Positions 234-51,610 of a stretch of DNA of 64,000 nucleotides are shown piece after piece (position 1 is the first letter of the stretch; each line of letters opens with the position of its first letter). Both the position numbers and the translations under genes were made by a program. This DNA is from Companilactobacillus zhachilii. Its GTDB lineage: Bacteria > Bacillota > Bacilli > Lactobacillales > Lactobacillaceae. The stretch lies in assembly GCF_003606365.2 (NCBI RefSeq), contig NZ_CP031933.2, positions 2,108,001 through 2,172,000 on the forward strand, written 5' to 3'. The notes under the pieces were generated by a model that was given only the letters and a program-made list of their open reading frames with translations, made no database searches and was not told the DNA's origin.

Positions 234-413
234 GCCACCTCCAGAAGCAAAAAAATTTAGGTCGCTATGGGGACCGACTTGAGCCAAAGAACGGTCTCAA
301 GTCTCGCTTTTGAACTTCGCAAAGTACGCGAATTTCAAAAGTCGTCCCGTGGTGTAATGGTCGCGACCATTACACCACTTGCACAGCGACCTAAATTTTT
401 TGCTTCCTCCGGT
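234..413 (+). repeat. Cloverleaf repeat core, copy R1 (subfamily a)
   Basis: This is an imperfect palindrome of about 180 bp. The outer stem is formed by AAATTTAGGTCGCT and AGCGACCTAAATTT. Inside are an arm GACTTGAG/CTCAAGTC, an arm TTTTGAA..TTTCAAAA, a GGGGAC/GTCCC pairing around both, and an arm GGTGTAATGGTC/GACCATTACACC with perfect pairing. It lies between a plus-strand gene end and the minus-strand gene end at 571. See the finding on the repeat family. Confidence 0.9.
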
Positions 414-570
414 TAATTTATTCTCTGTTTGGAATATTCTTACCTTTACAGCATCGATGACTGTTCAAAATATTTTTATCAATCAATTGTCTGCTAAAGA
501 TACAAAAAAAGGATAAACTTTGAGATTTTATCCTTCTCAAAATCTATCCATCTTTTTTTAATATCTTTAA

Positions 571-1428
571 CTATGCAAATGACGTAGCAACACTACCAAC
601 GACGATAAGGACAATTCCCAAAATCGTAAAGGTTAGTTCGTGGCGGCTCTTACGTTCATGAAGTACGAAAATACCACCAAATGTTCCGATCACTACGTTT
701 AGTTGTGTCCAAATGAAAGCTGATGTATTACCGTTTGCCTTAGCTGAGAAAATGTAAGCAAAAGCAGCGATTCCCCAAGCAACACCGGCAATAATATTTT
801 GATATTGTTCTTTTTGTTTAAATGAATTCTTATCGGTAAATAAAGCGTAAATAATTGATCCTAATAAGATTCCTAACATTTCAGGTAGAAAAATTCCAGT
901 TGAACTTTCTGCCTTAACAATTGGCATATTTGGAAATGATGAGTAGATCCAAAAACCTACGGTTGTACATAATAGGAAGAGGGCATCTTTTAATTGCATC
1001 TTTTGACCATCAGTACTATCAGATACTGAGGTCAACAATGCACCTACTACAACAATAGCTAAAGCAATGATTCCGATAACCTTGGCTTGTGCACCTGCCC
1101 AATCACCGAAAATCAACATCCCGATAATCGAATTACCAACTAATTGAAAGACAGTTGATAATGGAACTGTTCCTGAAACGCCAATACGCTTGAAAGAAAT
1201 AAATTGTCCAATTTGTCCGATTGTCCACAAAGCGCCACAAAGAACTGAGAACCAAAAGGCTTGAGCGCTTACACTCGGTTGTGTAACGAGGAATGAAATT
1301 AACCCAACAATGGTGGCACCGGCACCGATACCGAACATTTGGTTAACTGGGGATCCCCCAACTTTTCCAGTAATGATTGGCATAAAGCCCCAACCAAGCG
1401 CTGGAATTAAAGCAATTAAAATATTCAT
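571..1428 (-). CDS. GRP-family sugar uptake transporter (GlcU/RbsU-like)
   Basis: This 285-aa hydrophobic protein has about ten predicted membrane helices and begins MNILIALIPALGWGFMPI. That N-terminus and the segment GSPVNQMFGIGAGA are typical of the glucose/ribose transporter family (DMT superfamily, GRP group; established knowledge). Such proteins import glucose or ribose by proton symport, independently of PTS. The start at 1428 is preceded by AAGGAG at a good distance. It is monocistronic, facing structured repeat R1 downstream. The substrate (glucose or ribose) cannot be told from sequence alone. Confidence 0.85.
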   Translation of the reverse strand: MNILIALIPALGWGFMPIITGKVGGSPVNQMFGIGAGATIVGLISFLVTQPSVSAQAFWFSVLCGALWTIGQIGQFISFKRIGVSGTVPLSTVFQLVGNSIIGMLIFGDWAGAQAKVIGIIALAIVVVGALLTSVSDSTDGQKMQLKDALFLLCTTVGFWIYSSFPNMPIVKAESSTGIFLPEMLGILLGSIIYALFTDKNSFKQKEQYQNIIAGVAWGIAAFAYIFSAKANGNTSAFIWTQLNVVIGTFGGIFVLHERKSRHELTFTILGIVLIVVGSVATSFA

Positions 1429-1680
1429 TATGAAACTCCTTCTTGTTTTAACTGAATATTAGTAATAATCATTTTTTAACGTGGTATATTTTGATTGGCA
1501 TAAAGAATTTTGTGTTTCTTATTAATACAATCTCTATTACTCGTGCTGAATATTATTACAATTAATTTGTCTAAATCAGTCGAGTTGGCACAAAAAAATG
1601 TCATGACTTATCTAGACCATTTTAATAGTTTAACGCATTTCAAAAAAATTGAAAGCATTTTCTTCAAAAAATCAAAAAAA

Positions 1681-1726
1681 ATGAAAGTGCATCCAAAGTC
1701 TTTCTCGACTTCAATACTACTTTCAT
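1681..1726 (-). terminator. Terminator of gpmA
   Basis: On the minus strand the stem ATGAAAGT/ACTTTCAT encloses a second stem AAGTC/GACTT and is followed by a run of eight T. It lies just past the gpmA stop. The rest of 1429-1741 shows no gene; it should hold the promoter of the sugar transporter's upstream side, but I see no clear site. Confidence 0.7.
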
Positions 1727-1741
1727 AATTTTCAAATTAAT

Positions 1742-2416
1742 TTATTTTTCAACACGATTACTGCTGACAATATTTAGTTTTTCATCAAATTCATAAATCA
1801 AAGGTTTTCCATTTTCGACTTCAACACCATCAATATCTTGATCACTAATACCTTCAATATACTTGATCAAAGCTCTGATAGTACTTCCATGAGCAACAAT
1901 CAATTGATTCTTGTTATCCAGTAGTTCTGGTGCCACATGATCAACATAATATGGAATGATTCGTTGATAAGCTTCATATAAGCTTTCTGCAACTGGCATA
2001 ATACTAGACTCGTAGTATTTATATGGGCCAACGTTTGGATCAGGCTTTTTCAATTCTGGTGGAACAGAATAAAAACTTCGCCGCCATTGATGCACTTGTG
2101 CTACACCAAATTCTCTTCTAGTAGCATCTTTATTTTGACCACGTAAAGCTCCGTAATGACGTTCATTTAAGCGCCAAGTTTTAGTAATCGGCACGTAATT
2201 AAGGTTCAAATCATCTTGAATGATATAAGCTGTGATAATAGCTCTTTGTAACACAGATGTATGTACATGATCAAAATAAAAACCCTGTAATTTTTTTGCA
2301 GCCACGTGAGCTTGGACAACACCCTCTTGCGTCAAACCAACGTTATTCCACCCTGTATATTGATTTAAAGCATTAGCAATACTCTCTCCATGCCTGACCA
2401 TGACAAGTTTTACCAT
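1742..2416 (-). CDS. gpmA: 2,3-bisphosphoglycerate-dependent phosphoglycerate mutase
   Basis: The 224-aa product interconverts 3- and 2-phosphoglycerate in glycolysis. The phospho-histidine motif is VRHGES at residues 7-12, and the family block LNERHYGALRGQNK is present, as is the second catalytic histidine in IVAHGSTIRAL near residue 175. Length is slightly under the usual 228-250. The ribosome binding site upstream of 2416 is weak. It stands alone with its own terminator. Low-GC bacteria often carry several gpmA paralogues, so this may not be the main glycolytic enzyme. Confidence 0.93.
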   Translation of the reverse strand: MVKLVMVRHGESIANALNQYTGWNNVGLTQEGVVQAHVAAKKLQGFYFDHVHTSVLQRAIITAYIIQDDLNLNYVPITKTWRLNERHYGALRGQNKDATRREFGVAQVHQWRRSFYSVPPELKKPDPNVGPYKYYESSIMPVAESLYEAYQRIIPYYVDHVAPELLDNKNQLIVAHGSTIRALIKYIEGISDQDIDGVEVENGKPLIYEFDEKLNIVSSNRVEK

Positions 2417-2480
2417 ATTACGACATTCCCAACTTTCATATAGAATTACCTACTAATATTAGCACAATTCGGCTTTCTTA

Positions 2481-3359
2481 TTAATCGATCAAAGAATTAT
2501 CTAACCCTCTTGAGCATTCAGCCTGTAAGGTTACATGCGTAATATTGAACTTATCTTTTAATAATTTATCGACTGTATCATATAAACCATCAAGTTCACT
2601 CATATTGCAATTTCTTTTTACATTGATATGGGCATCTAGCATGATATGATTTTCATCAATCATCCATACATGGACATGGTGAACCTTGACAATTTCCGGA
2701 ATAGTCAAAATTACGTCCTGAACGGCATCTAAATCAATTTTTGGACTAGCCTCCATCAGGATATTAATCGTTTCTGAAACGACCGTGTATGCCTCTTTTA
2801 AGAGCCAAATAGCAATAACGATTGTTATAAGTGGGTCGACCCAATTCCAATTAAACAAAATAACAAAAATTGAAGCTACGAAAACACCAATTGAAGACAG
2901 TGTATCTGTCAACATATGTAGAAATGTTGCCTTAATATTTAGGTTATGTTTCGATCCCGACAATAACATAAGCATTGAAATAAAATTAGCCGCTAAGCCA
3001 ATCAATGAAACAATCATCATCAATTTACCATTAATATGTTGTGGTGTTGATAAACGTCTAAATGACTCAACTACCATCATTAACGTTATTACTACTAAGA
3101 CAATCGAATTGACAAAAGCAGCCAATATTTCGGCACGCTTGTACCCAAAAGTCTTCTTAGTATTATTTTTGCGCTGACCAATTACATTAGCCACATATGA
3201 AATTACGATAGAAAGCGAATCTTCTAAGTTATGGAAGGCATCTGAAATCAAACCAAGACTTCCTGAGAAAAAGCCTCCGATAAATTCAGTAATTGTAATA
3301 ACTACATTCAGTACGGTTACATAAAAGAAACGCTTCCCCGTTACTTTCTCATGATCCAT
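2481..3359 (-). CDS. Cation diffusion facilitator (CzcD/ZitB-like metal exporter)
   Basis: The 292-aa protein has about six membrane helices and a cytoplasmic C-terminal domain. The metal site pairs are visible: HNLED in helix 2 (SDAFHNLEDSLS) and HMLTD in helix 5 (FLHMLTDTLSSIG). The C-terminal part VHHVHVWMIDENHIMLDAHI is the usual ferredoxin-like dimer domain. CDF proteins exchange Zn(II), Cd(II), Co(II) or Mn(II) for protons. The start at 3359 is chosen because AGGAGGTG lies six bases upstream; a longer frame to 3446 has no such site and runs into a terminator hairpin. Confidence 0.9.
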   Translation of the reverse strand: MDHEKVTGKRFFYVTVLNVVITITEFIGGFFSGSLGLISDAFHNLEDSLSIVISYVANVIGQRKNNTKKTFGYKRAEILAAFVNSIVLVVITLMMVVESFRRLSTPQHINGKLMMIVSLIGLAANFISMLMLLSGSKHNLNIKATFLHMLTDTLSSIGVFVASIFVILFNWNWVDPLITIVIAIWLLKEAYTVVSETINILMEASPKIDLDAVQDVILTIPEIVKVHHVHVWMIDENHIMLDAHINVKRNCNMSELDGLYDTVDKLLKDKFNITHVTLQAECSRGLDNSLID

Positions 3360-3437
3360 AGCCGTCACCTCCTCGTGTCTATCATACCAATGTTTTCGAC
3401 AAACAGTTAGCGACAAGTAACGGTTCAAAACAAATGA

Positions 3438-3467
3438 CTCCAGCAATCCTAAATCGGACCACTGGAG
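3438..3467 (-). terminator. Terminator hairpin, CCAG-ATCC family
   Basis: CTCCAGcaATCC pairs with GGAccaCTGGAG, with a T-rich stretch after it on the minus strand. It terminates the 70-aa gene at 3538. Related hairpins occur at 5881, 11732, 14692, 25731, 26252, 37571 and 44077. Confidence 0.75.
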
Positions 3468-3537
3468 CCATTCGTTTTAATACTCGAAAGTAGAACATGT
3501 TCTGCTCCACTCTCTTAAACGGTTATATTTTATCCTT

Positions 3538-3750
3538 CTATTTAGTTGTTAACTTTGCAACAACTTTAATGGGATGAGCTACATCAATGATATCAGAGAA
3601 TCTGTTTGTAACATAATCTCTCATACCGTCACGGGCTTCTTTCTTAGAAACGTTGTGACAAATGCGCTTCTTAGCAATTGTTTGGCCTTCCTTGCTAAAG
3701 AAATTACAAGTAACTTCATAATCGCCATGATTACCAAAAAACAACATCAT
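3538..3750 (-). CDS. Small conserved-looking hypothetical protein, 70 aa
   Basis: The 70-aa product starts at 3750 behind AAGGGGG and is followed by a terminator, so it behaves like a real transcription unit. It has a strand-like N-terminal half (YEVTCNFFSKEGQTIAKKR), a charged helix (SKKEARDGMRDYVTNRF) and a closing strand (HPIKVVAKLTTK). It has no signal peptide or membrane segment. I do not recognise the family. The overlapping plus-strand frame at 3574-3843 is a shadow. Confidence 0.65.
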   Translation of the reverse strand: MMLFFGNHGDYEVTCNFFSKEGQTIAKKRICHNVSKKEARDGMRDYVTNRFSDIIDVAHPIKVVAKLTTK

Positions 3751-3946
3751 TGTGACCCCCTTCTACACAAAATAACTATCTCATTAACTTCGACCAGATA
3801 TTTATACCACTTTTTCAAAGTCAGTTCAACACCGTATTTTTAAATTTCTTTTTTAAAGAAAAACTAAGCATTTTTTAGTTAATTAATTCAAATTAACTAA
3901 TTATGATATTATGGTCTTAACGAATTATTCACAGGGGAGTAACGTT

Positions 3947-4687
3947 ATGAAAAGGCAAAACGGCAATAACAGGACGCACATGACTCGTGAAGCGCTTCGT
4001 CGTAAAAGATTACCATTTTATAAAAAAAATTCTTTCATCATTTCCATCTTTTTGATTTTGATTGTACTGATTGGTCTATTCGTTTTTTGGAAAGCAAATA
4101 CTTCCCACAACACTGATTCTACACAACCTTCACATAAGGTAGAAAAAGTTAAAGCTAAGAAACCAGCTAAAAAGAAAACTACTAAAAAAGCCAAACAGAG
4201 TAACAAAGCACAAAAAGTCACCAAAGAACAACCAGCTAAACAAGTGGAGAAACAACCTGAGAAAAAACCGGCTGCACCACAAATAAAGAATGCCGGAACT
4301 TACAGTGATTTAACTTATGATACTGATTGGTATACATTTAAAATTTCCAATGAAGTTAAGCTGATCAAAGATGCTAACGGGGATGCGGCATTATTAGTAA
4401 AATACAATTACACTAACAAAACTAATAACAACGAAGTTCCTCAACAAGTTCAAAACAATGCTATTATGTTGAAACAAGATGGCAAACAATTATCAGCCAC
4501 TTCAGCAACTGGAGATAATGCAGCTATCGTCAATAGTAGTAATAATGGTCAAGTTCAGCCAGGCAAGAGCTTTGACGGCGCCCTTTTAGTTAAGGTAAAC
4601 AATACGACCTCAGAAGTAACCATGTACTTCAAGAATATCCAAACTAATGATTGGCTCGATAGTACCCAACCACTTAAATTAGATTAA
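3947..4687 (+). CDS. Membrane-anchored DUF5067-type protein
   Basis: The 246-aa product has a short basic N-terminus, one membrane helix (residues about 25-45, IISIFLILIVLIGLFVFW), a long Lys/Ala/Pro-rich linker, and an extracellular beta domain from about residue 115. That domain (LVKYNYTNKTNNNEVPQQ, then QVQPGKSFDGALLVKV) matches the pattern of DUF5067, a beta-sandwich domain common in lactobacilli whose role is unknown. The start at 3947 has AGGGGAG upstream; the longer frame from 3911 has no site. The Lys/Ala linker may contact the negatively charged wall (inference). Confidence 0.8.
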   Translation: MKRQNGNNRTHMTREALRRKRLPFYKKNSFIISIFLILIVLIGLFVFWKANTSHNTDSTQPSHKVEKVKAKKPAKKKTTKKAKQSNKAQKVTKEQPAKQVEKQPEKKPAAPQIKNAGTYSDLTYDTDWYTFKISNEVKLIKDANGDAALLVKYNYTNKTNNNEVPQQVQNNAIMLKQDGKQLSATSATGDNAAIVNSSNNGQVQPGKSFDGALLVKVNNTTSEVTMYFKNIQTNDWLDSTQPLKLD

Positions 4688-4720
4688 CAAGTGCCACATT
4701 ATTTGAAATTGAATATCATC

Positions 4721-4775
4721 AAAAAGGCTAGATATTTTTCTGGATTTAATACCAAAAAAATATCTAGCCTTTTTA
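4721..4775. terminator. CTAGATATTT hairpin H1, bidirectional terminator
   Basis: AAAAAGGCTAGATATTTTT pairs with AAAATATCTAGCCTTTTT between two convergent genes. A and T runs on both sides allow termination in both directions. The bases just before it (cacattatttgaaattgaa) recur before the hairpin inside repeat unit R9, so this is a solo copy of that unit's right half. Confidence 0.85.
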
Positions 4776-4863
4776 TATTTGATTACAAAAACTTGAGAAA
4801 GAATCCCCAAATGACGATTTCCATAATCTGCACTGGAAACTGGTCACACAGAGCAAAAATTAG

Positions 4864-6504: not shown

Positions 6505-6633
6505 TTTAATCACCTTATTTTTACTCTATGATCACTATAAAAATAATACTGAATGACTATTTTTGCCAAAAATTAACACTCAAATTATCCCGATTGTCTT
6601 TTTTATAATAAATTACAAGGGGTGTTTGGTTAG

Positions 6634-6813
6634 TTGCCGTCTCTGGGTGCAAGAAATGTTGGCGCTGTGGGGACCGACTTGAGCCAAAGTACGGTCTCAA
6701 GTCTCGATTTTGAACTTCGCAAAGTACGCGAATTTCAAAACTCGTCCCGTGGTGTAATGGCTAAAGCCATAACGCCACCGTCACTGCTGCCAACATTTCT
6801 TGCACCCAGAGAC
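6634..6813 (+). repeat. Cloverleaf repeat core, copy R2 (subfamily b)
   Basis: The outer stem is GTCTCTGGGTGCAAGAAATG against CATTTCTTGCACCCAGAGAC, perfect over 20 pairs. Arms: GACTTGAG/CTCAAGTC, TTTTGAAcTTCGC/GCGAAtTTCAAAA, and GGTGTAATGGC/GCCATAACGCC. GGGGAC and GTCCC are positioned to pair around the first two arms. Confidence 0.92.
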
Positions 6814-6894
6814 TAATATATTTGTTACCTTTTATATGATATAACTAACTAATTCGATTAAAAAGTTCTATGTGATTTTAGATTTAACATAATC

Positions 6895-6950
6895 AAAAAG
6901 CTAGATATTTTTTTTTGATGTATACCAAGAAAAATACCTAGCCTTTTTTA
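6895..6950. terminator. CTAGATATTT hairpin H2
   Basis: AAAAAGCTAGATATTTTT pairs with AAAAATACCTAGCCTTTT, one base differing from the other copies. It lies downstream of the minus-strand DUF956 gene and inside the subfamily b unit. Confidence 0.7.
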
Positions 6951-7066
6951 TATTCACTTCTATAACCAAAGTTGAGAAAGAACAGATTTTGAATTACTGG
7001 AGATATTTATCTTCATACTCAAAAATCAAAAGTTTCCTATTACATTTTCTTAAAAACCTTGTTCAA

Positions 7067-7556: not shown

Positions 7557-7579
7557 CCATATGTGAAAGTTTCGAATAA

Positions 7580-10733: not shown

Positions 10734-10982
10734 AGAGCTCAATCCCATTTATATCAGCATTTTCAATTTAGTTAAAAAAGATGATAAATTACGATAAAGA
10801 TTTTTTCACATGTTACTTCTATGTAACAGCTTGTCACATATGTTTCTACGGATTTAAGTTTGAGAAAAATATTGTCGAACAGATTGTAATTTACTGAAAC
10901 TGGTAGTTACCAATTTGTATAGCCCATTTTTAGTAAAAATAAATTCTTAAGATTTTTTAAAGATGGGCTAAACCAAAAAATA

Positions 10983-11155
10983 TGCCGCCTCCAAGAGCAA
11001 GAGATTAGGTCGCTATGGGGACCGACAAAAGCCAAGGTCTTTTGTCTCGATTTTGAACCTCGCACAAACCGCGAGTTTCAAAAGTCGTCCCGTGGTGTAA
11101 GAGCTGAAGCTCTAACGCCACCTGCACAGCGGCCTAATTTCTTGCTCTTTCCGGC
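10983..11155 (+). repeat. Cloverleaf repeat core, copy R3 (subfamily a)
   Basis: Arms here are GACAAAAG/CTTTTGTC, AACCTCGC/GCGAGTTT and GGTGTAAGAGC/GCTCTAACGCC, all paired but unlike R1 in bases. The outer stem is GCCGCCTCCAAGAGCAAG against CTTGCTCTTTCCGGC. A degenerate end TCAGCACTAC at about 11278-11287 matches the terminal inverted repeat of R4's unit. Confidence 0.9.
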
Positions 11156-11731
11156 TAGTTCATTGTTTATTTTTGAATCAATATTAAATTATTTTGTCAT
11201 CAACGACTAGAATTTCAGGATATAGAGTATGTTCTGAATTTTTTGACTTTAAAACAAATCCATAGAAAAAAATCAATCAGCACTACAAGTAATAGCATTA
11301 TATTTTTAGACATATATAAGATACCAATTTACTTTTCTAAAAAATACCTTTAACGACAAATAATCTAACACCACTTAAATATGAAGTTAAAAATAAGTTA
11401 GATATTAAAAACCTCATTGTTCAAATGATAATCTTTGAAATTAAATTTATCTTGAAAGCGCAATTTCAAATTCTCTTTGAAGATAAATATGCCGTTCGCC
11501 TTCAGAAACAAAAAATTAAAGTATATTTTTATATTCTTCAATATTTAGTCCCTATTAATAGTAGGAATCAATTCGTAAATTTACTCCGTCACAAATAATC
11601 TTTTAGATTTAATAAATATCTAATATCACTTTATCTTTTTAATCTTATTCAAAATTCATCATATGAAAACATAATATTTTAATATAAAAGTAGAAGTCAC
11701 GATATAACCGCTTTTTCCGTATAAGATAAAT

Positions 11732-11765
11732 AGCCCCAGCAATCCAAACTCGGATTACTGGAGCT
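11732..11765 (-). terminator. Terminator hairpin, CCAG-ATCC family
   Basis: AGCCCCAGCAATCC pairs with GGATTACTGGAGCT downstream of the minus-strand DUF4867 gene. Confidence 0.7.
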
Positions 11766-11830
11766 ATTCTCTTAACGATTGAAAGCTGAACATCCTCCGC
11801 CCAACTTCCAATAGCAAAACACTATTATTT

Positions 11831-12511
11831 TTATTTAGCTAATGGTTTCATTTCAATCATCTTGCCTGTTAAACCAACTTCGACTCCAATAGCAATCTTA
11901 TCTTTACGACTTGGATCAACTAATTGGAACTTGTTTTGTTTAACGATTCGTTTGTTAGTGCTCTTGAAATCTGCAGGTAACTCTTCATTAGTACCTTTAA
12001 TCAACATAACAATGATTGAGAATCCAGAATCATGAACCTTGATAGGTGCATAATGCAAGGTTGAACTATAAAATTCAACTACTGTACCAGCTGGAACAAA
12101 GAATGTTTGACCATCGTCGGCTGGACTGTATGAACCTTTAGTATCAAGGATTGAACGTTGTCCTAAAACCATGATGACATCAGTCAACATAATATTAGTT
12201 TCGCTACCTTGGTGATATTCGATGGCTGAAAAGTTAGTTGATTGACCTGTACATTCCCCAGCTTCAATTGGCATGTTGGCATAAATATCCTTGCCCATTT
12301 CTTGAATAACTGGAATTGCTTCTAGTCCTTTATTTGACGGAGTATAGAAATTAGCTGGACTTGAAATTTTAACATTCTTATCCATATAGTCAGTTACTTC
12401 ACTAATATCATAGTTAGTATAAACTTTTCCGTACTTCTTAAAGTCTGGATCATCAATTGAGAGGATCTTATATTCTGGATTTAATTTTTGAAATTCTTCT
12501 AATGAACTCAT
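11831..12511 (-). CDS. DUF4867 family protein (cupin-like)
   Basis: The 226-aa soluble protein has a beta-barrel-like core (AGECTGQSTNFSAIEYHQGS, DDGQTFFVPAGTVVEFYSST, LHYAPIKVHDSGFSIIVML), with histidines spaced as in metal-binding cupins. The sequence matches what I know of DUF4867, found next to sugar metabolism genes and suspected to be a sugar isomerase or epimerase-like cupin. A GGGGGAACAG site precedes 12511. It is divergent from the ketopantoate reductase gene with a cre-like site between them. Confidence 0.8.
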   Translation of the reverse strand: MSSLEEFQKLNPEYKILSIDDPDFKKYGKVYTNYDISEVTDYMDKNVKISSPANFYTPSNKGLEAIPVIQEMGKDIYANMPIEAGECTGQSTNFSAIEYHQGSETNIMLTDVIMVLGQRSILDTKGSYSPADDGQTFFVPAGTVVEFYSSTLHYAPIKVHDSGFSIIVMLIKGTNEELPADFKSTNKRIVKQNKFQLVDPSRKDKIAIGVEVGLTGKMIEMKPLAK

Positions 12512-14729: not shown

Positions 14730-14782
14730 TTTGTTTTAAGTGAAAAAAGCAATACAAATATTTTGGCTTCCATCCGCTCCTT

Positions 14783-15161
14783 ATATAACGCGTGGTGCTA
14801 GTTGATTTTTTGATGATGAATTTGAAATTATTTTTTTAAGCAATTTTTTTAATCAAAAGATTCAAATATGCCTTACATCCTATTGCTTTAGTCATTAATA
14901 GCATAATAATACTTATAACTATTCATTATTAATTAAAAGAACAAAGAATAAACTAGCCGGAAAGAGCAAGAAATTTTGGTCGCTGTGAAGGTGGCGTTAG
15001 GGATTTATCCCTTACACCACGGGACGACTTTTGAAATTCGCGGTTTTTGCGAGGTTCAAAATCGAGATTCGAGACCGCTTTTTGGCTCGAATCGGTCCCC
15101 ATAGCGACCAAAATTTCTTGCTCTTGGAGGTGAAACCTTTAACTAGCACTACGCGTTATAT
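14783..15161 (-). mobile_element. MITE-like unit of subfamily a with 21-bp terminal inverted repeats (contains R4)
   Basis: The ends at 14783-14803 and 15141-15161 are inverted repeats matching at 20 of 21 positions (core ACGCGTGGTGCTAGTT and AACTAGCACTACGCGT). The cloverleaf core is off-centre, at 14956-15132; the other 150 bases are AT-rich filler that also resembles filler around R7. No coding frame is present. The unit lies between two convergent PTS genes. Confidence 0.85.
14956..15132 (-). repeat. Cloverleaf repeat core, copy R4 (subfamily a, reversed)
   Basis: Read on the plus strand, the arms are GGCGTTAGGGAT/ATCCCTTACACC, TTTTGAAATTCGC against the matching strand, and GATTCGAG/CTCGAATC. 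The outer stem is GAGCAAGAAATTTTGGTCGC against GCGACCAAAATTTCTTGCTC. Confidence 0.92.
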
Positions 15162-15224
15162 GGAAAATAAAAGAGCATTGGAATCTTTCCAATGCTCTTA
15201 CGTGACTATGAAGGGTGTAATACT

Positions 15225-17331: not shown

Positions 17332-17556
17332 GACAGCAATTGGACTAGATGGATTTGATATTGGTATATTCCGAAATAGTCTATATCTTCAAATGTGTTT
17401 TCCCATTTCCAGTATTAGTCATTATTTTTAATCACTTTTATATTTCTAATTTAAAAATTAAAAAACTTTAAGTCCTGACACTCTGGTTGCGAATGATACA
17501 AAACAGCAAGACTTATACAGCAATCTAAAAAAATATCTAAAGCAAAGATTACACTA

Positions 17557-17732
17557 GCCGGAAGGAGCAAGAAAATTTTGGTCGCTGTGACAGTGGAGTT
17601 ATGGCTTTAGCCATTACACCACGGGACGAGTTTTGAGACTTGCGGTTCGTGCAAGGCTCAAAATCGAGACTGGAGACCTCGGCTCCAGTCGGTCCCCATA
17701 GCGACCAAAATTTTCTTGCTCCTGGAGGCGGC
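17557..17732 (-). repeat. Cloverleaf repeat core, copy R5 (subfamily a, reversed)
   Basis: Arms read on the plus strand: ATGGCTTTAGCCAT, GAGACTTGC/GCAAGGCTC, GACTGGAG/CTCCAGTC. The outer stem is GAGCAAGAAAATTTTGGTCG against CGACCAAAATTTTCTTGCTC. It lies between divergent genes. Confidence 0.9.
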
Positions 17733-17773
17733 CACACATAACACATTATTAATTTCTAATAATAACTTTAATA

Positions 17774-20602: not shown

Positions 20603-20643
20603 TAAAAAACACGTTCGAAAAATTTGGTTATAGAATCGAATGT

Positions 20644-20701
20644 AAAAAAAGGCTAGATATTTTCCTGGTGGTATAAATCCAGAAAAAATATCTAGCCTTT
20701 T
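20644..20701. terminator. CTAGATATTT hairpin H3, bidirectional terminator
   Basis: AAAAAAAGGCTAGATATTTT pairs with AAAATATCTAGCCTTTTA. It follows the ATPase gene. Confidence 0.8.
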
Positions 20702-20782
20702 ACTTATATTTAATTTCAAATAAAGTGTAACCTTCTTATCAAATTAACTAATCATACCATATAAAAAATAACAAATATATTA

Positions 20783-20961
20783 GTCTCTGGGTGCAAAAAA
20801 TGTTGGCTGCAGTGAAGGTGGCGTTAGAACTTTACTATTACACCACGGGACGAGTTTTGAAATTCGCGCACTTGGCGAAGTTCAAAATCGAGACCTTAGA
20901 CAGCCCTTTGGCTCAAGTCGTTCCCCACAGCGCCAACATTTTTTGCACCCAGAGACGGCAA
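20783..20961 (-). repeat. Cloverleaf repeat core, copy R6 (subfamily b, reversed)
   Basis: The outer stem is GTCTCTGGGTGCAAAAAATG against CATTTTTTGCACCCAGAGAC, in which both strands carry the matching A/T change relative to R2. The arm near 20825 (AGAACTTTACTATT) is weaker than in other copies, so this copy may be decaying. Confidence 0.88.
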
Positions 20962-20987
20962 CTAACCAAAATTGCGGACGTGTTTTT

Positions 20988-21728
20988 TTACTTACCCGAA
21001 ACTAACGGATAATCATTATCTAAAACATAACCAAAGCCACGAACTGTTTTTATACAATCCGGTGACTGCGATCTCTCTGCTAACTTATCACGCAAATGAC
21101 TGATGTGGATATCTATTGTTCGACTGGATCCGGCTGAATCATATCCCCAGACCCCCTCTAATAACTGATCACGACTCATGACTTTGCCGCGATGCTGTAC
21201 TAAATACCAAAACAAACTAAACTCCTTAGGTGTCAGGCCAAGATCATAACCGTTATGAGTTACACGATAATGTTTAAAATCAATCACGATATCATTGAAT
21301 TTAACTGTTTCATTTTTTAATTCTTTGCGCGTATTTTTAGGAACATCCTTTGTTATTGAAAAACGGTCATAAACCCAAAAAAGCTGTTTAACTTTTGCAA
21401 CCAACTCTGGATATTCAAAGGGTTTAGTAATGAAACTATCAATGTTGATATTGTAAAACAGCGACCGACGCTTCTTTTCTTTAGCGGGAGCCAGTACAAT
21501 GATAGGTCCAGAGATTTTGCTACGTAATTCTTTTAATATTTTTAAAGATTGATGCAGATCAGTAATCGAAAAATCCCATAATAAACCAGCAATTTCTTCT
21601 TTTTCAACTAACTTCACTACTTCATTTGGATCAGTTATATTTCGAATAAACCAGCCTTGATTATTGAAATACCCGTTAATTTCAATAAAAAGTGGTAACT
21701 TATTGCTTAGCAATACTAGAGGTTGCAT
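20988..21728 (-). CDS. OmpR/PhoB-family response regulator with an atypical receiver domain
   Basis: The 246-aa protein has a receiver-like domain (residues 1-115) and a winged-helix domain (about 145-240; DLGLTPKEFSLFWYLVQHRG and ISHLRDKLAE). The likely phosphoacceptor is the Asp of LLWDFS, and the Lys of ITKPF is kept, but the acidic pair after strand 1 is replaced by SNK (LVLLSNKLP), so metal binding may be lost. It is divergent from pstS and has no histidine kinase beside it. It is the obvious candidate for control of pst (inference). The start at 21728 has GGAAGGAAG upstream. Confidence 0.85.
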   Translation of the reverse strand: MQPLVLLSNKLPLFIEINGYFNNQGWFIRNITDPNEVVKLVEKEEIAGLLWDFSITDLHQSLKILKELRSKISGPIIVLAPAKEKKRRSLFYNINIDSFITKPFEYPELVAKVKQLFWVYDRFSITKDVPKNTRKELKNETVKFNDIVIDFKHYRVTHNGYDLGLTPKEFSLFWYLVQHRGKVMSRDQLLEGVWGYDSAGSSRTIDIHISHLRDKLAERSQSPDCIKTVRGFGYVLDNDYPLVSGK

Positions 21729-29367: not shown

Positions 29368-29428
29368 TCAAACAAATTCAAACAAAAATCAAATAATTAA
29401 TCTTGTTAATAATTTAATTAGTAATAAA

Positions 29429-29482
29429 AAAAAAGCTAGATATTTTTCTGGATGTATACCAAGAAAAATATCTAGCCTTTCT
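29429..29482 (-). terminator. CTAGATATTT hairpin H4 (solo copy)
   Basis: AAAAAAGCTAGATATTTTTC pairs with AAAAATATCTAGCCTTTCT. It terminates the 82-aa gene at 29600. It is followed by one arm of the CCAG-ATCC hairpin (atcggattactggagcc, about 29503-29520), showing that the two terminator types can be joined. Confidence 0.75.
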
Positions 29483-29599
29483 TACATTCAACTTTGTACC
29501 CAAAATCGGATTACTGGAGCCATTTTTAATACCCGAAAGCTGACTATATTTCGTCAAACTTTCTCTGATTTGATACTTTAAGGAAAAAATATCTATCAA

Positions 29600-29908: not shown

Positions 29909-30264
29909 ATACGTTTGGTACTAGTTGGCCTTTGACTTTGGATTAAAAATTACTTTTAAAATCAAAATATACTCCATATCCTATAACTCTAGTTACAGTC
30001 ATCAACGGCACAATAATACCTAAAATTACTCAATGCTAATTCAAAAATATGGAATGAACTAGCCGGAAAGAGCAAGAATTTTTGGCCGCTGTGCAGGTGG
30101 CGTTGGCGCTTCAGCGCTTACACCACGGGACGACTTTTGAAACTCGCGCTCTTTGCGAGGTTCAAAATCGAGATTGGAGACCGCTCTTTGGCTCCAATCG
30201 GTCCCCATAGCGACCAAAGTTTCTTGCTCTTGGCGGCGGCATATTTAACTAACCCGCACGTATA
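29909..30264 (-). mobile_element. MITE-like unit of subfamily a (contains R7), degenerate ends
   Basis: The left end has ACGTTTGGTACTAGTT and the right end AACTAACCCGCACGTA, a decayed version of the inverted repeats of the unit at 14783-15161. Filler sequence at 29975-30020 also resembles filler of that unit. No coding frame. It separates divergent genes. Confidence 0.65.
30062..30240 (-). repeat. Cloverleaf repeat core, copy R7 (subfamily a, reversed)
   Basis: Arms on the plus strand: GGCGTTGGCGC/GCGCTTACACC, AACTCGC/GCGAGGTT, GATTGGAG/CTCCAATC. The outer stem is GCCGGAAAGAGCAAGAA against TTCTTGCTCTTGGCGGC. Confidence 0.9.
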
Positions 30265-37618: not shown

Positions 37619-37671
37619 TTACACCATATTTTTGGGGAGGATTAACTAGGAACTGTCTTAAAATTAGTCTG

Positions 37672-37833
37672 ATAAGAATCGGTTCTGATACGGATGAATA
37701 TTTTAAAGACATGGTCATTCCAGAATCCTATCAAGACAGTAATAAAAACCATAAAAAATATTCGAGATATCAAGCTATTCTTGAGTTAATAAAGAACCAG
37801 TCGGAAGATTCGGACAGTGGTTACTGGCAGTGA
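37672..37833 (+). pseudogene. Possible gene remnant running into repeat R8
   Basis: An open frame reads RIGSDTDEYFKDMVIPES, then YQDSNKNHKKYSRYQAILEL, then ends in TGA at 37831-37833 inside the repeat. The composition is protein-like, but there is no start codon at a useful distance from the GGGGAGG at 37634. It looks like an internal or C-terminal gene piece whose end was replaced by the repeat. The original gene is not recognised. Confidence 0.3.
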
Positions 37834-37982
37834 AAGTGGTGTTAGGACGACCGCTTTTGTCGTTCTTACAGCACCGGACGCGTTTAAGACTTGCCGAACT
37901 TGCAAGGCTTAAACCGAGGTCCGAGACCGTGGCTCGGACCGTTCCGCACCGCCAGTGACCACTGTCCGAATCTGTAGACGGC
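37797..37982 (-). repeat. Cloverleaf repeat core, copy R8 (divergent subfamily c, reversed)
   Basis: Nearly all bases differ from the other copies, yet the same arms appear in the same order: outer GATTCGGACAGTGGT with ACCACTGTCCGAATC, GGACGAC/GTCGTTC, GTTTAAGaCTTGC/GCAAGgCTTAAAC, and GGTCCGAG/CTCGGACC. Conserved spacers are CCGGACG and CCGAG. This copy is the strongest proof that the fold matters. Confidence 0.88.
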
Positions 37983-38006
37983 AGGCATATAATTTGAAGA
38001 CACATC

Positions 38007-39323
38007 CTAGGCTGAAATCTTTTTAAAATGATGTTCCATTGATTCTCGATAAATTCGTTTGATAGTTTTTTCGTAATCATCATTATTAACACCGAAGACA
38101 ATTTTCAAGTCACTGCCTTCTTGGAAGACGAATCGTACATGTATCAAGCTACTATCTAGATAATTTAAAATCTTGCCAGCAATCGCCGGTCTTTTGCTCA
38201 ACTGCAATGACACCGCTGCGACAAGGGCAATGTTTTGATTAACTTCGACGGAATCGACACCACATGTTTTTTTCAATTTAGAAATAATAGCTGATAAATG
38301 AGTAGCAATCTCGGCATGCTGACACAAGAAACTAAATCCATCATTACCCGATGGCACTGAATTAATTGCTAAATCAAACTTCTGGAATACTGCCAAAACT
38401 TTTTGCAAAACTTCCAGATGTTTATTCAACTGATACTTTCTAATTGTTATTACGGTACAGTCTTTCCGTCCAGCAATCCCTGTCACGATTTGATCTTTTT
38501 TCTCATCTTCATGGGCACTGACAACTAATGTTCCGCCAGCTTCAGGTTGATTTGTATTCAAAATGGCTGTCGGAATGTGTTTTTCTCGCACGGGTCGAAC
38601 GGCTTCTTCTTGGAAAACACCAATTCCCATATAAGAAAGTTCTTGCAATTCATCATAAGTCAAACTATCAATCTTTTGAGAATTAGAGACAATGCGGGGA
38701 TCGGCCATTAAGATACCTGAGACATCTGTCCAATTTTCATACAATTCAGCATCTACTAAATTGGCCAAAAGAGAACCTGAAATATCGCTACCTCCACGAG
38801 GCATCAAATGAACGGAACCATTCTCATTAGCACCATAAAAACCCGGTACTACTATTTGCGAATGTGTTGCTAGAACATTTAACAACCTTTTTTGCGACTG
38901 AACATAATTTATGCCTTGATTATCAAATATCAAAATATCTTTTGCATCGACAAAATAATAGCCCAGGTATTTTGCCATTAATTTAGCAGTTAAATATTCA
39001 CCACGAGAAATTAAATAATCATGTGAACATGTACCTAACTGTTGATGAATAATTTGTAAATCCTTTTCAATCTTAATAGATAAGGCTAAATCATTTCTTA
39101 TTTTAATAATACGGTCACTTACAGCTTGAAAAAGTGGTTCAGAATCAGCAGCCTGTTCTAAATTTAACAACATATCAGTCATCTTGACTGGCTCGCTGGA
39201 ACTTTTTCCGGCTGCACTGACAACAACTATTTGTCGCTTTCTATCGCTGTTTATAATTTGTTTTACCTTCTTAAATTGTCCAGCATCTGCTACCGAACTA
39301 CCTCCAAATTTGACGACTTTCAT
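38007..39323 (-). CDS. Aspartate kinase
   Basis: The 438-aa enzyme phosphorylates aspartate, the first step to threonine, methionine and lysine. The kinase motif MKVVKFGGSSVADAGQF starts the protein, followed by IVVVSAAGKSSSEPVKMTD, RGGSDISGSLLA and two C-terminal ACT domains (from about residue 300). The start at 39323 lies one base after the hom stop, with AGGGGG upstream. Paired with hom and opposite thrC-thrB, it is probably the threonine-branch isoenzyme. Confidence 0.92.
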   Translation of the reverse strand: MKVVKFGGSSVADAGQFKKVKQIINSDRKRQIVVVSAAGKSSSEPVKMTDMLLNLEQAADSEPLFQAVSDRIIKIRNDLALSIKIEKDLQIIHQQLGTCSHDYLISRGEYLTAKLMAKYLGYYFVDAKDILIFDNQGINYVQSQKRLLNVLATHSQIVVPGFYGANENGSVHLMPRGGSDISGSLLANLVDAELYENWTDVSGILMADPRIVSNSQKIDSLTYDELQELSYMGIGVFQEEAVRPVREKHIPTAILNTNQPEAGGTLVVSAHEDEKKDQIVTGIAGRKDCTVITIRKYQLNKHLEVLQKVLAVFQKFDLAINSVPSGNDGFSFLCQHAEIATHLSAIISKLKKTCGVDSVEVNQNIALVAAVSLQLSKRPAIAGKILNYLDSSLIHVRFVFQEGSDLKIVFGVNNDDYEKTIKRIYRESMEHHFKKISA

Positions 39324-45043: not shown

Positions 45044-45055
45044 GGAGAATTTATT

Positions 45056-45682: not shown

Positions 45683-45791
45683 CTTCATGAAAATTTAATT
45701 AGCATTATTGCCCATAAACGTGCAGCTTAAAACAAAAAAATTAGCAAACCAAACTCAGGCTCTTTCTCAAGTTTAATTATAAAATCCAACA

Positions 45792-45851
45792 TAAAAAAAG
45801 CTAGATATTTTTCTGGATTTATTATACCAAGGGAAAATATCTAGCTTTTTG
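45792..45851. terminator. CTAGATATTT hairpin H5, bidirectional (solo copy, reversed flanks)
   Basis: AAAAAAAGCTAGATATTTTT pairs with AAAATATCTAGCTTTTT between convergent genes. The flanks (ctttctcaagt before, attcaatttcaaata after) match the right part of subfamily b units in reverse. Confidence 0.85.
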
Positions 45852-45884
45852 TTTATATTCAATTTCAAATAACACGACACTCTT

Positions 45885-47273: not shown

Positions 47274-47274
47274 T

Positions 47275-48660: not shown

Positions 48661-48760
48661 TTTTTCCCTCCAAAACAAAGTAATTAACTCAATTATAGCG
48701 GAGATGAAAGATGGGGCAAAATGAAAAGGAATCGTTTTTCAAATTCAGTTACTTAAATAT

Positions 48761-48941
48761 GCCGCCTCCAAGAACAAGAAATTTTGGTCGCTATGGGGAC
48801 CGATTCGAGCCAAAGTGCGGTCTCGAATCTCGATTTTGAACTTCGAGAAGACCATTCGAATTTCAAAAGTCGTCCCGTGGTGTAGGCGCTGAAGCGCCAA
48901 TGCCACCTGCACAGCGACCAAAATTTCTTGTTCTTTCCGGC
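48761..48941 (+). repeat. Cloverleaf repeat core, copy R10 (subfamily a)
   Basis: Arms: GATTCGAG/CTCGAATC, TTTTGAACTTCGA/TCGAATTTCAAAA and GGTGTAGGCGC/GCGCCAATGCC. The outer stem is CAAGAAATTTTGGTCGC against GCGACCAAAATTTCTTG, with GAACAAG/CTTGTTC changed on both sides relative to R3's GAGCAAG/CTTGCTC. Confidence 0.92.
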
Positions 48942-49084
48942 TAGTTTATCCTTTATTTCTAAATCAATAGTGAATAACTTTCAATATTATAATGTCACTG
49001 ATAACTAAAGTCATATGATAAGGGGTATATTGAATTTCAAATCTATAGTAAAAAATCAACTAGCACCACGCGTATTGAAGATAC

Positions 49085-49148
49085 TAAAAAAGGCTAAATA
49101 TTTTATCTCGATATATTGCCTGAGATAAAAAGTATCTAGTCTTTTTTT
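49085..49148 (-). terminator. CTAGATATTT-type hairpin H6 (divergent)
   Basis: AAAAAAGGCTAaATA pairs with TATCTAGTCTTTTTTT, with an inner stem TTTATCTC/GAGATAAA unlike the other copies. It terminates the YfcC gene. Confidence 0.75.
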
Positions 49149-49183
49149 CACAAATAGTACTAATTTTAGGCCTTAAATTATTT

Positions 49184-50713
49184 CTAAATCAACACTCCGA
49201 CACTCAAGAAGACCAGTATCAAAACAACTATCATAATTAGTAGTTTCATGACAAATTTCAACCACTTGTCAAAACCGACATTAACCATTGCTAATGATAC
49301 TAAAATCAATCCAGTTGGTGCAATTAGTCCAATCAAACCTTGACCCCAATTATAGGCGTTGATAATCATGGATCTATCAATTCCAACCACATCGGCTAAT
49401 GGCGCCATGATAGGCATGGATAGTACGGCCAAGCCTGATGATGATTGAATAAAGAAACCTAAAATAATGTATACGAAGAATAATACGCAGATGAACAAAA
49501 CGCTATTCATCCCTTTGATCTGGTTGGTAAAGTAATTCATGATCGTATCACTGACAAAACTCTTTTCCATTACGATACCAACTGATCTAGCTAAACCAAC
49601 TGTTAGAGCAACGCCCAGCAAATCTCCAGCCCCGGACACGAAACTATCGACAAACTTGCTCTCTTTTAAGCCAGCTGTAAAAATCAAAATATACGTTACA
49701 GCCAAGAAAACAACCGCAATTTCAGTAAAGTACCAGCCTAATTGTTGTACACCATAAATCATGACCACGAATCCTAGTGCAAAAACAATCAAGGATAACT
49801 TCTGGCGCATTGTGAAATCACCTTTAGTCGTTAAATCTAAGTCACCTAAAAATTTCTCCTTATCAGTCTCTGCCTGGTCAGCAACAAATGATTTGGAAGG
49901 GTCTTTTCTAACTTTTTCAGCATAATGAATTGTATAAATAATCGAAATACCGATTGAGGCAACCCACATTAAAACTCTCATTGGCATACCGTCAGTAAAA
50001 TTAATTCCAGCAGCGTTGGAAGCAATAACCGTTGAAAATGGATTGATTGTCGAACTCATGGAACCAATCGCGGTACCCAAATATACCGCTGCGACCACGG
50101 TCAACGTGTCATACCCTGCCAATAAAAAAATTGGAATAAGGATTGGATAAAAGGCAATGGTTTCTTCAGCCATACCAAAAGTTGTTCCACCTAATCCAAT
50201 CAAGGCTGTGACAATAAAAATCAGCCACTTCTGTTTACCTTTCAATACTTCAGACAGTCGCATCATTCCGGAGTTCATCGCCCCAGTTTGATTAACGACC
50301 CCAATAACACCACCTAGAATCAAAACAAACACGATGATATCAACACTATCAACAATCCCTTGAACTTGTGACGTTAAGAATTGATTGATTGTGCCAAAAA
50401 CACCTCGTTTTGGTTTCTTAATTTGATGATAAGTATTTGGAATAGCCGCTGGACGGTAAATTGTCCCATCCTTAAATTTTGAAACATTTATTTTAATCTT
50501 ATAATCATCGAGTGTCTTTTGAGTGGCACTCTTCTTAATTGTCTTACCAGAAGCTTCGGTAATAACAAATTTGTCCAAGCCCGAATTATATTCCAAGGTA
50601 CTGTACTTCCCTGATGGAATAAAGAACGTTAAAGCTTGAACCAAAATCAAAACGATAATAATAACAGTATACGCGGAAGGAAAGCTGTGCTTTTTCTTTT
50701 TTGCATTAGCCAT
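49184..50713 (-). CDS. YfcC-family membrane carrier (C4-dicarboxylate/amino acid type)
   Basis: The 509-aa protein has 12-13 helices, an early soluble loop (residues about 35-100), and the family strips QALTFFIPSGKYS and GLGGTTFGMAEETIAFYP, NPFSTVIASNAAGI. YfcC relatives include arginine/ornithine and dicarboxylate carriers; the exact substrate is not known. The nearby malate/fumarate genes suggest an organic acid (inference). The start at 50713 has GAGGGG upstream. A cre site lies before the gene. Confidence 0.85.
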   Translation of the reverse strand: MANAKKKKHSFPSAYTVIIIVLILVQALTFFIPSGKYSTLEYNSGLDKFVITEASGKTIKKSATQKTLDDYKIKINVSKFKDGTIYRPAAIPNTYHQIKKPKRGVFGTINQFLTSQVQGIVDSVDIIVFVLILGGVIGVVNQTGAMNSGMMRLSEVLKGKQKWLIFIVTALIGLGGTTFGMAEETIAFYPILIPIFLLAGYDTLTVVAAVYLGTAIGSMSSTINPFSTVIASNAAGINFTDGMPMRVLMWVASIGISIIYTIHYAEKVRKDPSKSFVADQAETDKEKFLGDLDLTTKGDFTMRQKLSLIVFALGFVVMIYGVQQLGWYFTEIAVVFLAVTYILIFTAGLKESKFVDSFVSGAGDLLGVALTVGLARSVGIVMEKSFVSDTIMNYFTNQIKGMNSVLFICVLFFVYIILGFFIQSSSGLAVLSMPIMAPLADVVGIDRSMIINAYNWGQGLIGLIAPTGLILVSLAMVNVGFDKWLKFVMKLLIMIVVLILVFLSVGVLI

Positions 50714-50770
50714 AATTGTCCCCTCTTTTCCCATTAATTAAATCCTTCACAAGTTAATTATATCAGGAAA

Positions 50771-50784
50771 AGAAAGCGTTTCCA
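50771..50784. promoter_or_regulatory. cre site upstream of the YfcC carrier gene
   Basis: AGAAAGCGTTTCCA matches the consensus at 13 of 14 positions. It is followed by the end of the metal homeostasis peptide gene. Confidence 0.7.
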
Positions 50785-50805
50785 TTATATTATTATAATC
50801 TTAAT

Positions 50806-50910
50806 TTATTTACGTTTATTATCCTTAATGGCACGTAACGCACGCTTACGAGTCTTGATATTAGGACTCCTGAGCTGACGGTAAGCTGTTGCTGTAGACA
50901 TTTTTTTCAT
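50806..50910 (-). CDS. Putative metal homeostasis peptide, 34 aa
   Basis: A 34-codon gene starts at an ATG at 50910 and ends in TAA at 50806. The peptide is MKKMSTATAYRQLRSPNIKT followed by RKRALRAIKDNKRK. It is very basic and matches the short lactobacillus peptides annotated as putative metal homeostasis proteins next to zinc-free ribosomal genes. It follows rpsN after 14 bases with a GGGG site, and probably belongs to the same Zur-controlled operon. Confidence 0.75.
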   Translation of the reverse strand: MKKMSTATAYRQLRSPNIKTRKRALRAIKDNKRK

Positions 50911-50924
50911 AATTTTTCCCCTTA

Positions 50925-51194
50925 TTACCAACTAGCTTTTTTCACACCAGGAATTTGACCGGCATGTGCTAACTGTCTAAAATTCAAACGAGACATCCCA
51001 AATTTACGCATGTAGGCGTGGGGGCGTCCATCGATTGAGTCACGATTCTTTAAACGAACTGGACTAGAATCTCTTGGTAGCTTTGAAAGAGCAATATAAT
51101 CACCCTTAGCTTTTAATTCTTTTCGGATTTGAGCATATCTTTCAATTAATTCCATTTGTTTCTTATTTCTAACAATCTTTGATTTCTTTGCCAT
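50925..51194 (-). CDS. rpsN: 30S ribosomal protein S14, zinc-independent paralogue
   Basis: The 89-aa protein starts [20 protein letters not shown] and ends [11 protein letters not shown]. It has no CxxC pairs, so it is the zinc-free (C-minus) form, longer than the 61-aa zinc form. Such copies replace the zinc form when zinc is scarce. GAGG lies upstream. Second gene of the operon, two bases after rpmG. Confidence 0.95.
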
Positions 51195-51196
51195 AA

Positions 51197-51346
51197 TTAC
51201 TTAACCTCTTTAAAAATTTCTCTTTGTTTTGTTTTTGGTGAATATTTCATTAATTCTAAACGATCTGGATGGTTCTGTTTATTTTTACTGGTTAGATATA
51301 GACGTTCATTCGTCTTACTACATTCCAAAATAATATTTTGACGCAT
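51197..51346 (-). CDS. rpmG: 50S ribosomal protein L33, zinc-free type
   Basis: The 49-codon gene runs from ATG at 51346 to TAA at 51197. The product starts [20 protein letters not shown] and ends [12 protein letters not shown]. Only one Cys is left, so it cannot form the four-cysteine zinc ribbon. GGGG precedes the start. It heads rpmG-rpsN-metal peptide. Confidence 0.9.
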
Positions 51347-51365
51347 TTTAAATCCCCACTTCTAA

Positions 51366-51417
51366 ATAGTAATTTTTACCATTCGTACATACTATTATTT
51401 TTTTAATTTAATGTCAA
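51366..51417 (-). promoter_or_regulatory. Promoter of rpmG operon with Zur-like box
   Basis: On the minus strand TTGACA (51412-51417) and TAGTAT (51389-51394) are 17 bases apart. Just after the -10 lies ATGGTAAAAATTACTAT (51366-51382), matching 14 of 16 defined bases of the Bacillus Zur box ATCGTAATnATTACGAT. Binding there would block transcription when zinc is ample. Confidence 0.7.
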
Positions 51418-51437
51418 TCAATTAGTTTTGGTTAGTT

Positions 51438-51610
51438 GCCGTCTCTGGGGGCAAGAAATGTTGGCGCTGTGGGGACCGCATGAAGCCAAGGTCTCCATGC
51501 TCGATTTTGAACTTCGCATAAAGCGCGAATTTCAAAACTCGTCCCGTGGTGTAATGGCTAAAGCCATTACACCACCTGCACTGCTGCCAACATTTCTTTC
51601 ACCCAGAGAC
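51438..51610 (+). repeat. Cloverleaf repeat core, copy R9 (subfamily b)
   Basis: Arms: GCATG/CATGC replacing GACTTG/CAAGTC, TTTTGAACTTCGC/GCGAATTTCAAAA, and GGTGTAATGGC/GCCATTACACC perfect. The outer stem has a few unpaired changes (GGGGGCAAG against CTTTCACCC). Confidence 0.9.

Follow-up and report, generated by a model that had tools for sequence, protein, structure and literature searches.

Introduction

What kind of element keeps one elaborate fold in many intergenic copies while the sequences of its arms change? This question is raised by a stretch of the chromosome of Companilactobacillus zhachilii (contig NZ_CP031933.2, positions 2,108,001 to 2,172,000; the whole 64,000-nt stretch is called the window, and positions refer to it unless the chromosome is named), in which an earlier note, made from the sequence alone, had described ten copies of a cloverleaf-shaped element with covarying arms. 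In this study, the element was analyzed in the window, in the host chromosome, and in genomes of the genus, the order and the phylum.

With slightly better than even confidence, we consider these copies members of a Lactobacillales family of structured, partly small RNA (sRNA)-like elements which turned into high-copy, non-autonomous mobile DNA in this organism. The functional unit would be the folded strand, and the ten copies of the window would represent a non-autonomous interspersed intergenic element, descended from an sRNA-like ancestor and spreading as a parasite. A trans-acting enzyme would recognise the folded strand, often on two convergent copies, as is the case for REPINs, and would thereby also move plain units without a frame. 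The recognised form would most likely be single-stranded DNA or a cruciform and less likely an RNA intermediate. Some lineages would ride as cargo in miniature transposons.

A single fold with covarying arms

Three models were used for searching; R1 was built from the ten window cores, R2 from 92 sequences and R3 from 80. All ten cores were found again where the earlier note had placed them, with E-values of 3e-42 to 2.7e-29 for R3, the training set of which contains these ten copies. Besides them, R3 yielded one weak 30-nt antisense piece in the window (51546-51575). As proposed, the cores share a single fold with an outer stem, an inner GGGGAC/GTCCC stem around two arms, and a third arm. One of the two enclosed arms carries a bulged motif (AGCC..GGTCT), which is nearly invariant in 143 copies of the host and recurs in many rows from other genera.

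Also as described before, each strand carries five copies. On the forward strand, these are c1 (232..419, model core 256-396, matched by R3), c2 (6634..6815, core 6656-6796, subfamily B), c3 (10980..11160, core 11004-11139, subfamily A), c9 (48758..48945, core 48782-48924, subfamily A), and c10 (51436..51612, core 51458-51593, subfamily B). On the reverse strand, these are c4 (14948..15136, core 14973-15113, subfamily A), c5 (17552..17736, core 17575-17710, subfamily A), c6 (20778..20961, core 20800-20939 with R1 and 20799-20939 with R3, subfamily B), c7 (30054..30245, core 30079-30219, subfamily A), and c8 (37795..37985, core 37818-37960), which belongs to a divergent subfamily C. The cores are indeed intergenic; two short open reading frames (ORFs; 88 and 108 amino acids) overlap c4 and c8. 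A tRNA identity was ruled out, as 0 tRNAs were found in the window.

The covariation was confirmed. RNAalifold gave 51 pairs in the ten cores, 20 of which show double-sided compensation at least once. In 145 model-aligned rows (143 copies and two antisense rows from 464 kb of the host genome), 95.2% of the pair cells held standard pairs, compared to 82.6% after shuffling and 28-47% after shifting the partner by 1-3 columns, and the covariation score was 0.356, compared to 0.126 for shuffles and 0.04-0.07 for shifted partners, this alignment being fitted to the model and thereby biased towards structure. The 7229 pair cells of the 143 copies comprised 6728 Watson-Crick pairs, 155 G·T pairs (a single T·G pair contributing 80), and 119 A·C states.

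Copy number and arrangement in the host chromosome

The label of a ten-copy element held for the window and proved far too low for the genome: the 2,714,973-bp chromosome contains 314 matches, with at most one mismatch, to a 14-mer from arm 3 (156 + 158 on the two strands; 0 for the reversed-pattern control). R1 detected 143 copies after removal of two antisense rows in the 464 kb sampled, most of which had been chosen partly for matches. The 14-mer is carried by 9 of the 10 window copies, by 21/31 copies in 164 contiguous kb, and by 92/133 copies in the partly match-chosen stretches, and calibration with these fractions resulted in 349, 464 and 454 copies, respectively; plain density over the 164 kb gave 513. 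The chromosome of 2.71 Mb thus contains about 450 copies (350-510 across estimates).

Nearly all copies are intergenic. After removal of ORFs shorter than 600 nt that overlap a core, 160 of 164 copies (the 143 and 21 more) overlapped no remaining ORF by more than 40 nt. Gaps containing a single copy have the 5′ end of the element closer to a gene in 68/78 cases (median 81 nt versus 225.5 nt), which indicates that the unit extends beyond the cloverleaf on its 3′ side.

Close neighbors form convergent doublets. Among 37 neighbor pairs less than 600 nt apart in the host sample, 33 were arranged '+-', three '++', one '-+' and none '--'; stretches of congeners contained seven '+-' pairs and one '--' pair, and more '+-' pairs were present in L251 (the same sequence as L252), L254, L256, L264 and L265, the last with an extra weak '+' copy. 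One doublet unit recurs with 78-84% identity across 485-571 nt.

Miniature-transposon frames

Some copies lie within longer units with sharp ends. In most B copies, the shared sequence extends from 30-34 nt upstream of the core (45 nt in some) to 172-200 nt downstream of it. B units, represented in the window by c2, c6 and c10, are bounded by ends that reach 22 bp where complete, and a terminator-like hairpin lies in their tail. The frame around c2 (6625..6983, forward strand) has the end TTTGGTTAG, such a tail, and the right end TATAACCAAAGTTGAGAAAGAAC, while that around c10 (51426..51777, forward strand) has the right end TATAACCAAAATTGAGAAAGAACC. Ends unlike those of B are found in A units, seen at c4 and with less clarity at c7 and c9, and in C units, seen at c8. 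The A frame around c4 (14781..15163, reverse strand) is bounded by the inverted repeat ATATAACGCGTRGTGCTAGTT at each end, c7 has imperfect A-type ends near 29910 and 30265, and c9 has an A-type right end (49055-49075) and an unrecognisable left end. The C frame around c8 (37646..38010, reverse strand) carries the inverted repeat CTAGGATGTGTCTTCAAATTA / CTAGGAACTGTCTTAAAATTA.

In the two B units of the sample with both full ends, the flanking 8-mers match at 8/8 and 6/8 positions (chance of six or more, 0.0076). The 8/8 unit, at chromosome positions 2,089,689-2,090,010, is inserted into an A unit with GCTAATTG flanking it on each side as an 8-bp duplication. The B unit of c6 splits a terminator hairpin (20604..20989, strand unassigned) into the halves 20604-20617 and 20975-20989, with the B frame at 20618-20973 between them; by eye, C. 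nantensis (L050) has this hairpin in one piece. Another unit, L172_14196, has one half of a terminator-like hairpin before it and the other half behind it, with TAAATAATAA on each side. It belongs to a tandem duplication, in which this B unit and its flank recur 395 nt away as L172_14591 with 100% identity. L176_12586 is a B frame without cloverleaf, which may reflect loss of the cloverleaf or a state prior to its gain.

The sole ISL3 transposase gene found in the host genome is associated with the end GGCTCTTTGTCAA, similar to the ends of frame B. With the ends GGTTCTTTCTTAAATTTGGTTA and, in one unit, a perfect 8-bp duplication that is a putative target duplication, frame B resembles ISL3-type miniature inverted-repeat transposable elements (MITEs); ISL3 elements have ends of this appearance and generate 8-bp duplications. 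As far as can be judged from the sequences, frame B is probably moved by an ISL3-type transposase. In contrast to such MITEs, only some copies are framed, and the same cloverleaf recurs in A, B and C frames, the ends of which are unrelated. The cloverleaf is therefore a module rather than just a single MITE family.

Tail-like pieces of frame B without cloverleaf were also seen in the window at 4678-4806, 29425-29510 and 45758-45870 (with the CTAGATATTTTT hairpin, and an ISL3-like end at 45758). A second repeat family, at about 3440, 5885, 11736, 14699, 25737, 26261, 37582 and 44084, consists of terminator-like hairpins around CAGTAATCCGATTTTGGATTACTG. Several of these have an A-run before and a T-run after them, and their arms vary yet remain largely paired. 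Several B units elsewhere lie in or beside hairpins of this type.

Site occupancy in sister species

Occupied and empty sites were judged by eye; an automatic table was unreliable where aligned blocks run into the element. C. nantensis, which is among the closest relatives according to nagE (94%), carries the element at c4 and c5, the c4 copy being of type B there and of type A in the window. It has no core at the c2, c6, c7, c8 and c9 sites, with only 11 nt between the aligned blocks at c9 and about 9 nt at c8 that may be a remnant, and it retains a remnant at c10. C. huachuanensis (L031, G009) has none at c5, c6, c7 and c8; its c2 site holds a different copy, and two further sites retain remnants. 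The c5 site is without element in L031 and also in L038. Gain and deletion thus both seem to occur. Beside these comparisons, the c3 site (10962-11831) spans 0.87 kb in the window versus about 1.6-1.7 kb of apparently coding sequence in C. nantensis and C. huachuanensis.

Distribution and kinship with SSRC8

At E ≤1e-3, R1 matched 14 of 19 genomes of the genus including the host, and the number of matches per genome among the 18 congeners ranged from 0 to at least 104. In 12 genomes of other families, R1 gave one weak match (E 2.6e-4). With R2 (E ≤1e-4), 36/395 genomes of the order from 12/80 genera were matched. With R3, 2/398 genomes of a phylum sample were matched, the host and one of Streptococcus type, both belonging to the order; in the R2 scan and in the R3 scan of the phylum, eight candidates per genome were scored, and the phylum scan had stricter filters and an unstated share of genomes from the order itself. 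As part of the favored explanation, and at the same confidence only just above even, we regard the fold as an old Lactobacillales feature that occurs in few copies in a Streptococcus-type genus and turned into a multi- to high-copy repeat in Companilactobacillus as well as in some other genera of the family. In L268 and L272-L275 from other genera, the fold seems to be without arm 1, with the inner stem around one arm, possibly representing a second type.

One genus of the order, g4, appears to be of Streptococcus type from its matches to the Rfam family RF02616 (SSRC8_2, for the S. pyogenes sRNA SSRC8) and its gene order. R3 matched 55 of its 98 genomes. Altogether, 32 g4 loci lie between infB and rbfA, namely the best 28 of the R3 rows (E ≤4.7e-15) and four from the R2 scan, while L300, L301, L303 and L305 lie outside this gap. 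The copy in L305, around 1541-1771, matches RF02616 with 44.5 bits and is flanked by what we take to be purE and purD. The infB-rbfA cloverleaf is strongly conserved: its mean distance among the 32 loci was 0.0505, compared to 0.0837 for the rest of the gap and 0.2400 for infB third positions, and it was lower than that of the third positions in 494/496 pairs. Purifying selection on it in part of g4 belongs to the favored explanation and shares its confidence, little more than even.

The earlier note had proposed a covariance-model search and knew of no matching family. There is indeed no direct Rfam match: the window gave none at gathering level, which for RF02616 is 72 bits, and c2 none up to E 5. 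The search nevertheless brought up wider relatives, among them g4 members that match RF02616 below this cut-off. Such sub-threshold matches were obtained for 10/11 loci (not for L276) and for another 7/10 (not for L249, L250 and L266), with 28.5-51.7 bits and, where compared, on the strand opposite to the cloverleaf model. The Streptococcus-type loci and L271, which is from a family other than that of g4, match within positions 138-242 of the 281 of SSRC8, and the matched part includes a bulged GAGACC..GGCUC arm and the neighboring arm (cmscan). In the window copies, the bulged part is recognisable by eye as the reverse complement, and otherwise via R2 and R3 only. In contrast to a true family member, the cover is partial, on the other strand and below the cut-off, and the link to the window is transitive via R2 and R3.

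SSRC8 was described in S. pyogenes MGAS315 by Northern detection and circular rapid amplification of cDNA ends, and its homologues in other streptococci span parts of nt 142-250 (PMC3675131). In S. pyogenes M49, tiling arrays revealed a plus-strand sRNA, sRNASpy491336c, between rbfA and infB; the complement tags of neighboring entries suggest a minus-strand operon, which would place this sRNA on the strand matching RF02616 (PMC3542284). The available parts of both accounts mention neither a repeat family nor lactobacilli (PMC3675131, PMC3542284).

Search for a mobilising agent and comparison with known repeats

Several candidate carriers were rejected. A 47-amino-acid open stretch beside c8 in the C-frame tail was considered as a transposase relic; 23 of 26 host matches, itself included, contain stops and none of 18 congeners has it, so it is repeat sequence. 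Three translated spacers between distant convergent copies (1.5, 2.0 and 2.8 kb), candidates for an autonomous version, contain ORFs that by eye resemble ordinary host genes. Carriage by phages or plasmids was likewise dismissed, since blastn gave no match for c4, and 72 viral contigs with the exact 14-mer gave 0 R1 matches at E ≤1.

No account of this repeat was found in the open literature searched, genus-named searches included, most subscription papers lying outside this scope. Pneumococcal BOX and RUP and bcr1 of B. cereus are likewise high-copy intergenic repeats in Firmicutes; the likeness is of this general kind. Closer are REPINs, which are REP doublets linked to RAYT and are described as many intergenic structured copies with inverted doublets of preferred spacing and an abundance that differs between related genomes (PMC3116915). 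These traits are shared by the present element, the preference for inverted doublets with 33/37 close neighbors convergent. In contrast, the fold here has three arms and about 185 nt, compared to the 20-40 bp given for REP sequences (PMC3733652), and the host genome contains no Y1 transposase.

Points against mobility of the folded strand

The proposed spread of the folded strand has to be weighed against a number of results. For plain units, neither an autonomous partner nor an enzyme copying them was found. RAYT/IS200-type mobilisation was rejected because Y1 (PF01797) is absent from the host and from the high-copy genomes G005 and G008, being present in 8/19 genomes of the genus, three of these partial. 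Retro-mobilisation fared no better, reverse transcriptase (PF00078) being absent from the host and the high-copy genomes G004 and G009 and present in G005 and G008. The doublets mix subfamilies, while REPIN doublets are typically identical pairs (PMC3116915). Tested as decayed doublets, singlets were not above background: the end motif was found on the 3′ side in 5/81 singlets, on the 5′ side in 6/79 and in 40/966 background windows, with three singlets carrying clear doublet remnants by eye. In addition, none of the sites compared showed a frameless insertion with target duplication, and the remnants at apparently empty sites (c10 and perhaps c8 in C. nantensis, two sites in C. huachuanensis) mean that absence there may be due to deletion. 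Terminal inverted repeats exceeded 99% of the mismatched-flank null in 8/140 copies and 95% in 13/140, some of these passes resembling AT-rich chance; with so few, frames account for a minority of copies only.

Further points of this kind come from the Streptococcus-type loci. R3 gave no match in 43/98 g4 genomes, and only 28 of the 55 matched genomes appear at infB-rbfA among the R3 loci. In the outer stem of the 32 loci, G·T cells number 47, most of them at two fixed wobble pairs, and A·C cells 0, which is closer to the expectation for an RNA of the infB strand, and the inner cloverleaf hardly varies (three G·T and three A·C cells). Together, the infB-rbfA conservation and the RNA detected in S. 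pyogenes point to an RNA role at this locus.

Alternative explanations

A first alternative is that the copies are a family of sRNA genes, in which each copy or some master copies would be transcribed into an sRNA or a protein-binding RNA and the multiplicity would result from gene duplication. It gains from the kinship with RF02616, the detection of SSRC8 as RNA (PMC3675131), the M49 sRNA between rbfA and infB (PMC3542284), and the conservation and wobble excess just described. Pairing states in Companilactobacillus also bear on it.

RNA of the sense strand is expected to prefer G·U to A·C. Between nearest neighbors, leaving out the outer stem and the fixed T·G pair, the single mismatched states comprised 48 G·T, 82 A·C and 56 others in alignment A4, and alignment A6 gave 31 G·T versus 60 A·C. 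Selection on a sense-strand RNA is thus unsupported in this genus, as the modelled strand has no G·U signature. The A·C excess equals a weak G·U lean on the other strand, which would suit an RNA gene, the events being not independent. Moreover, hundreds of copies in both orientations, with 14 on the same and 26 on the opposite strand in tandem single-copy gaps, and matches in congeners varying from none to at least 104 argue against sRNA genes, an explanation that we consider rather unlikely.

A second explanation concerns the compensation itself, from which the earlier note had concluded selection for structure. The strong covariation stands, but compensation alone is no proof of selection, because template switching in palindromes or conversion between copies could also yield paired changes. 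The arms would then stay paired neutrally, and the element would be miniature-transposon debris here. Template switching is a published mechanism that generates paired changes and yields double changes in one step (PMC8794818). Consistent with it, intermediates are few and one-step Watson-Crick doubles are many: in the nearest-neighbor comparison above, 231 doubles were counted versus 186 single states, and with all pairs kept 298 doubles versus 298 singles (100 G·T, 101 A·C and 97 others). Also, the c4 site holds different subfamilies in the two sister species, A in the window and B in C. nantensis, a pattern expected of conversion.

Against this, the bulged motif is nearly invariant and recurs in other genera, pairing is likewise kept in the inner stem that surrounds two arms (A4, 94.1% of cells; A6, 88.6%), and the Streptococcus-type orthologues are strongly conserved. 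We regard a purely neutral origin of the pairing as unlikely. The pair-state counts fit folded DNA, weakly an RNA of the other strand, or a mutational mechanism, without deciding between them.

A cis-acting terminator, insulator or mRNA stabiliser retained for its effect on adjacent genes would fit the nearly always intergenic position, the terminator-like hairpin in the B tails and the location of c6 within a terminator, but is very unlikely, as tandem (57/128), convergent (31/56) and divergent (25/60) gaps are all occupied, so that copies also lie where a terminator is unwanted, and sister species differ in site occupancy.

Implications

A high-copy structured repeat for which no description was found is real in C. 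zhachilii; it is distant kin of a known sRNA family and partly borne by miniature transposons. With about 185 nt per copy and 350-510 copies, an estimated 2-3.5% of the chromosome would consist of one structured repeat. Since the G·U signature is absent on the modelled strand, a repeat family with strong covariation is not necessarily RNA.

A bolder form of the favored explanation, which we consider doubtful, is that the element is a bacterial counterpart of short interspersed nuclear elements (SINEs): a conserved SSRC8-like sRNA family, with few copies and purifying selection at infB-rbfA in apparent streptococci, would have become self-spreading DNA in Companilactobacillus and some sister genera, with the fold serving as the mobility signal. 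Its copies, hundreds in the host, would include inverted pairs like those of REPINs and copies borne by miniature transposons. The occurrence as one conserved copy, as few copies and as hundreds provides a natural series for asking how a structured RNA or DNA element turns into a genomic parasite, and what recognises its fold.

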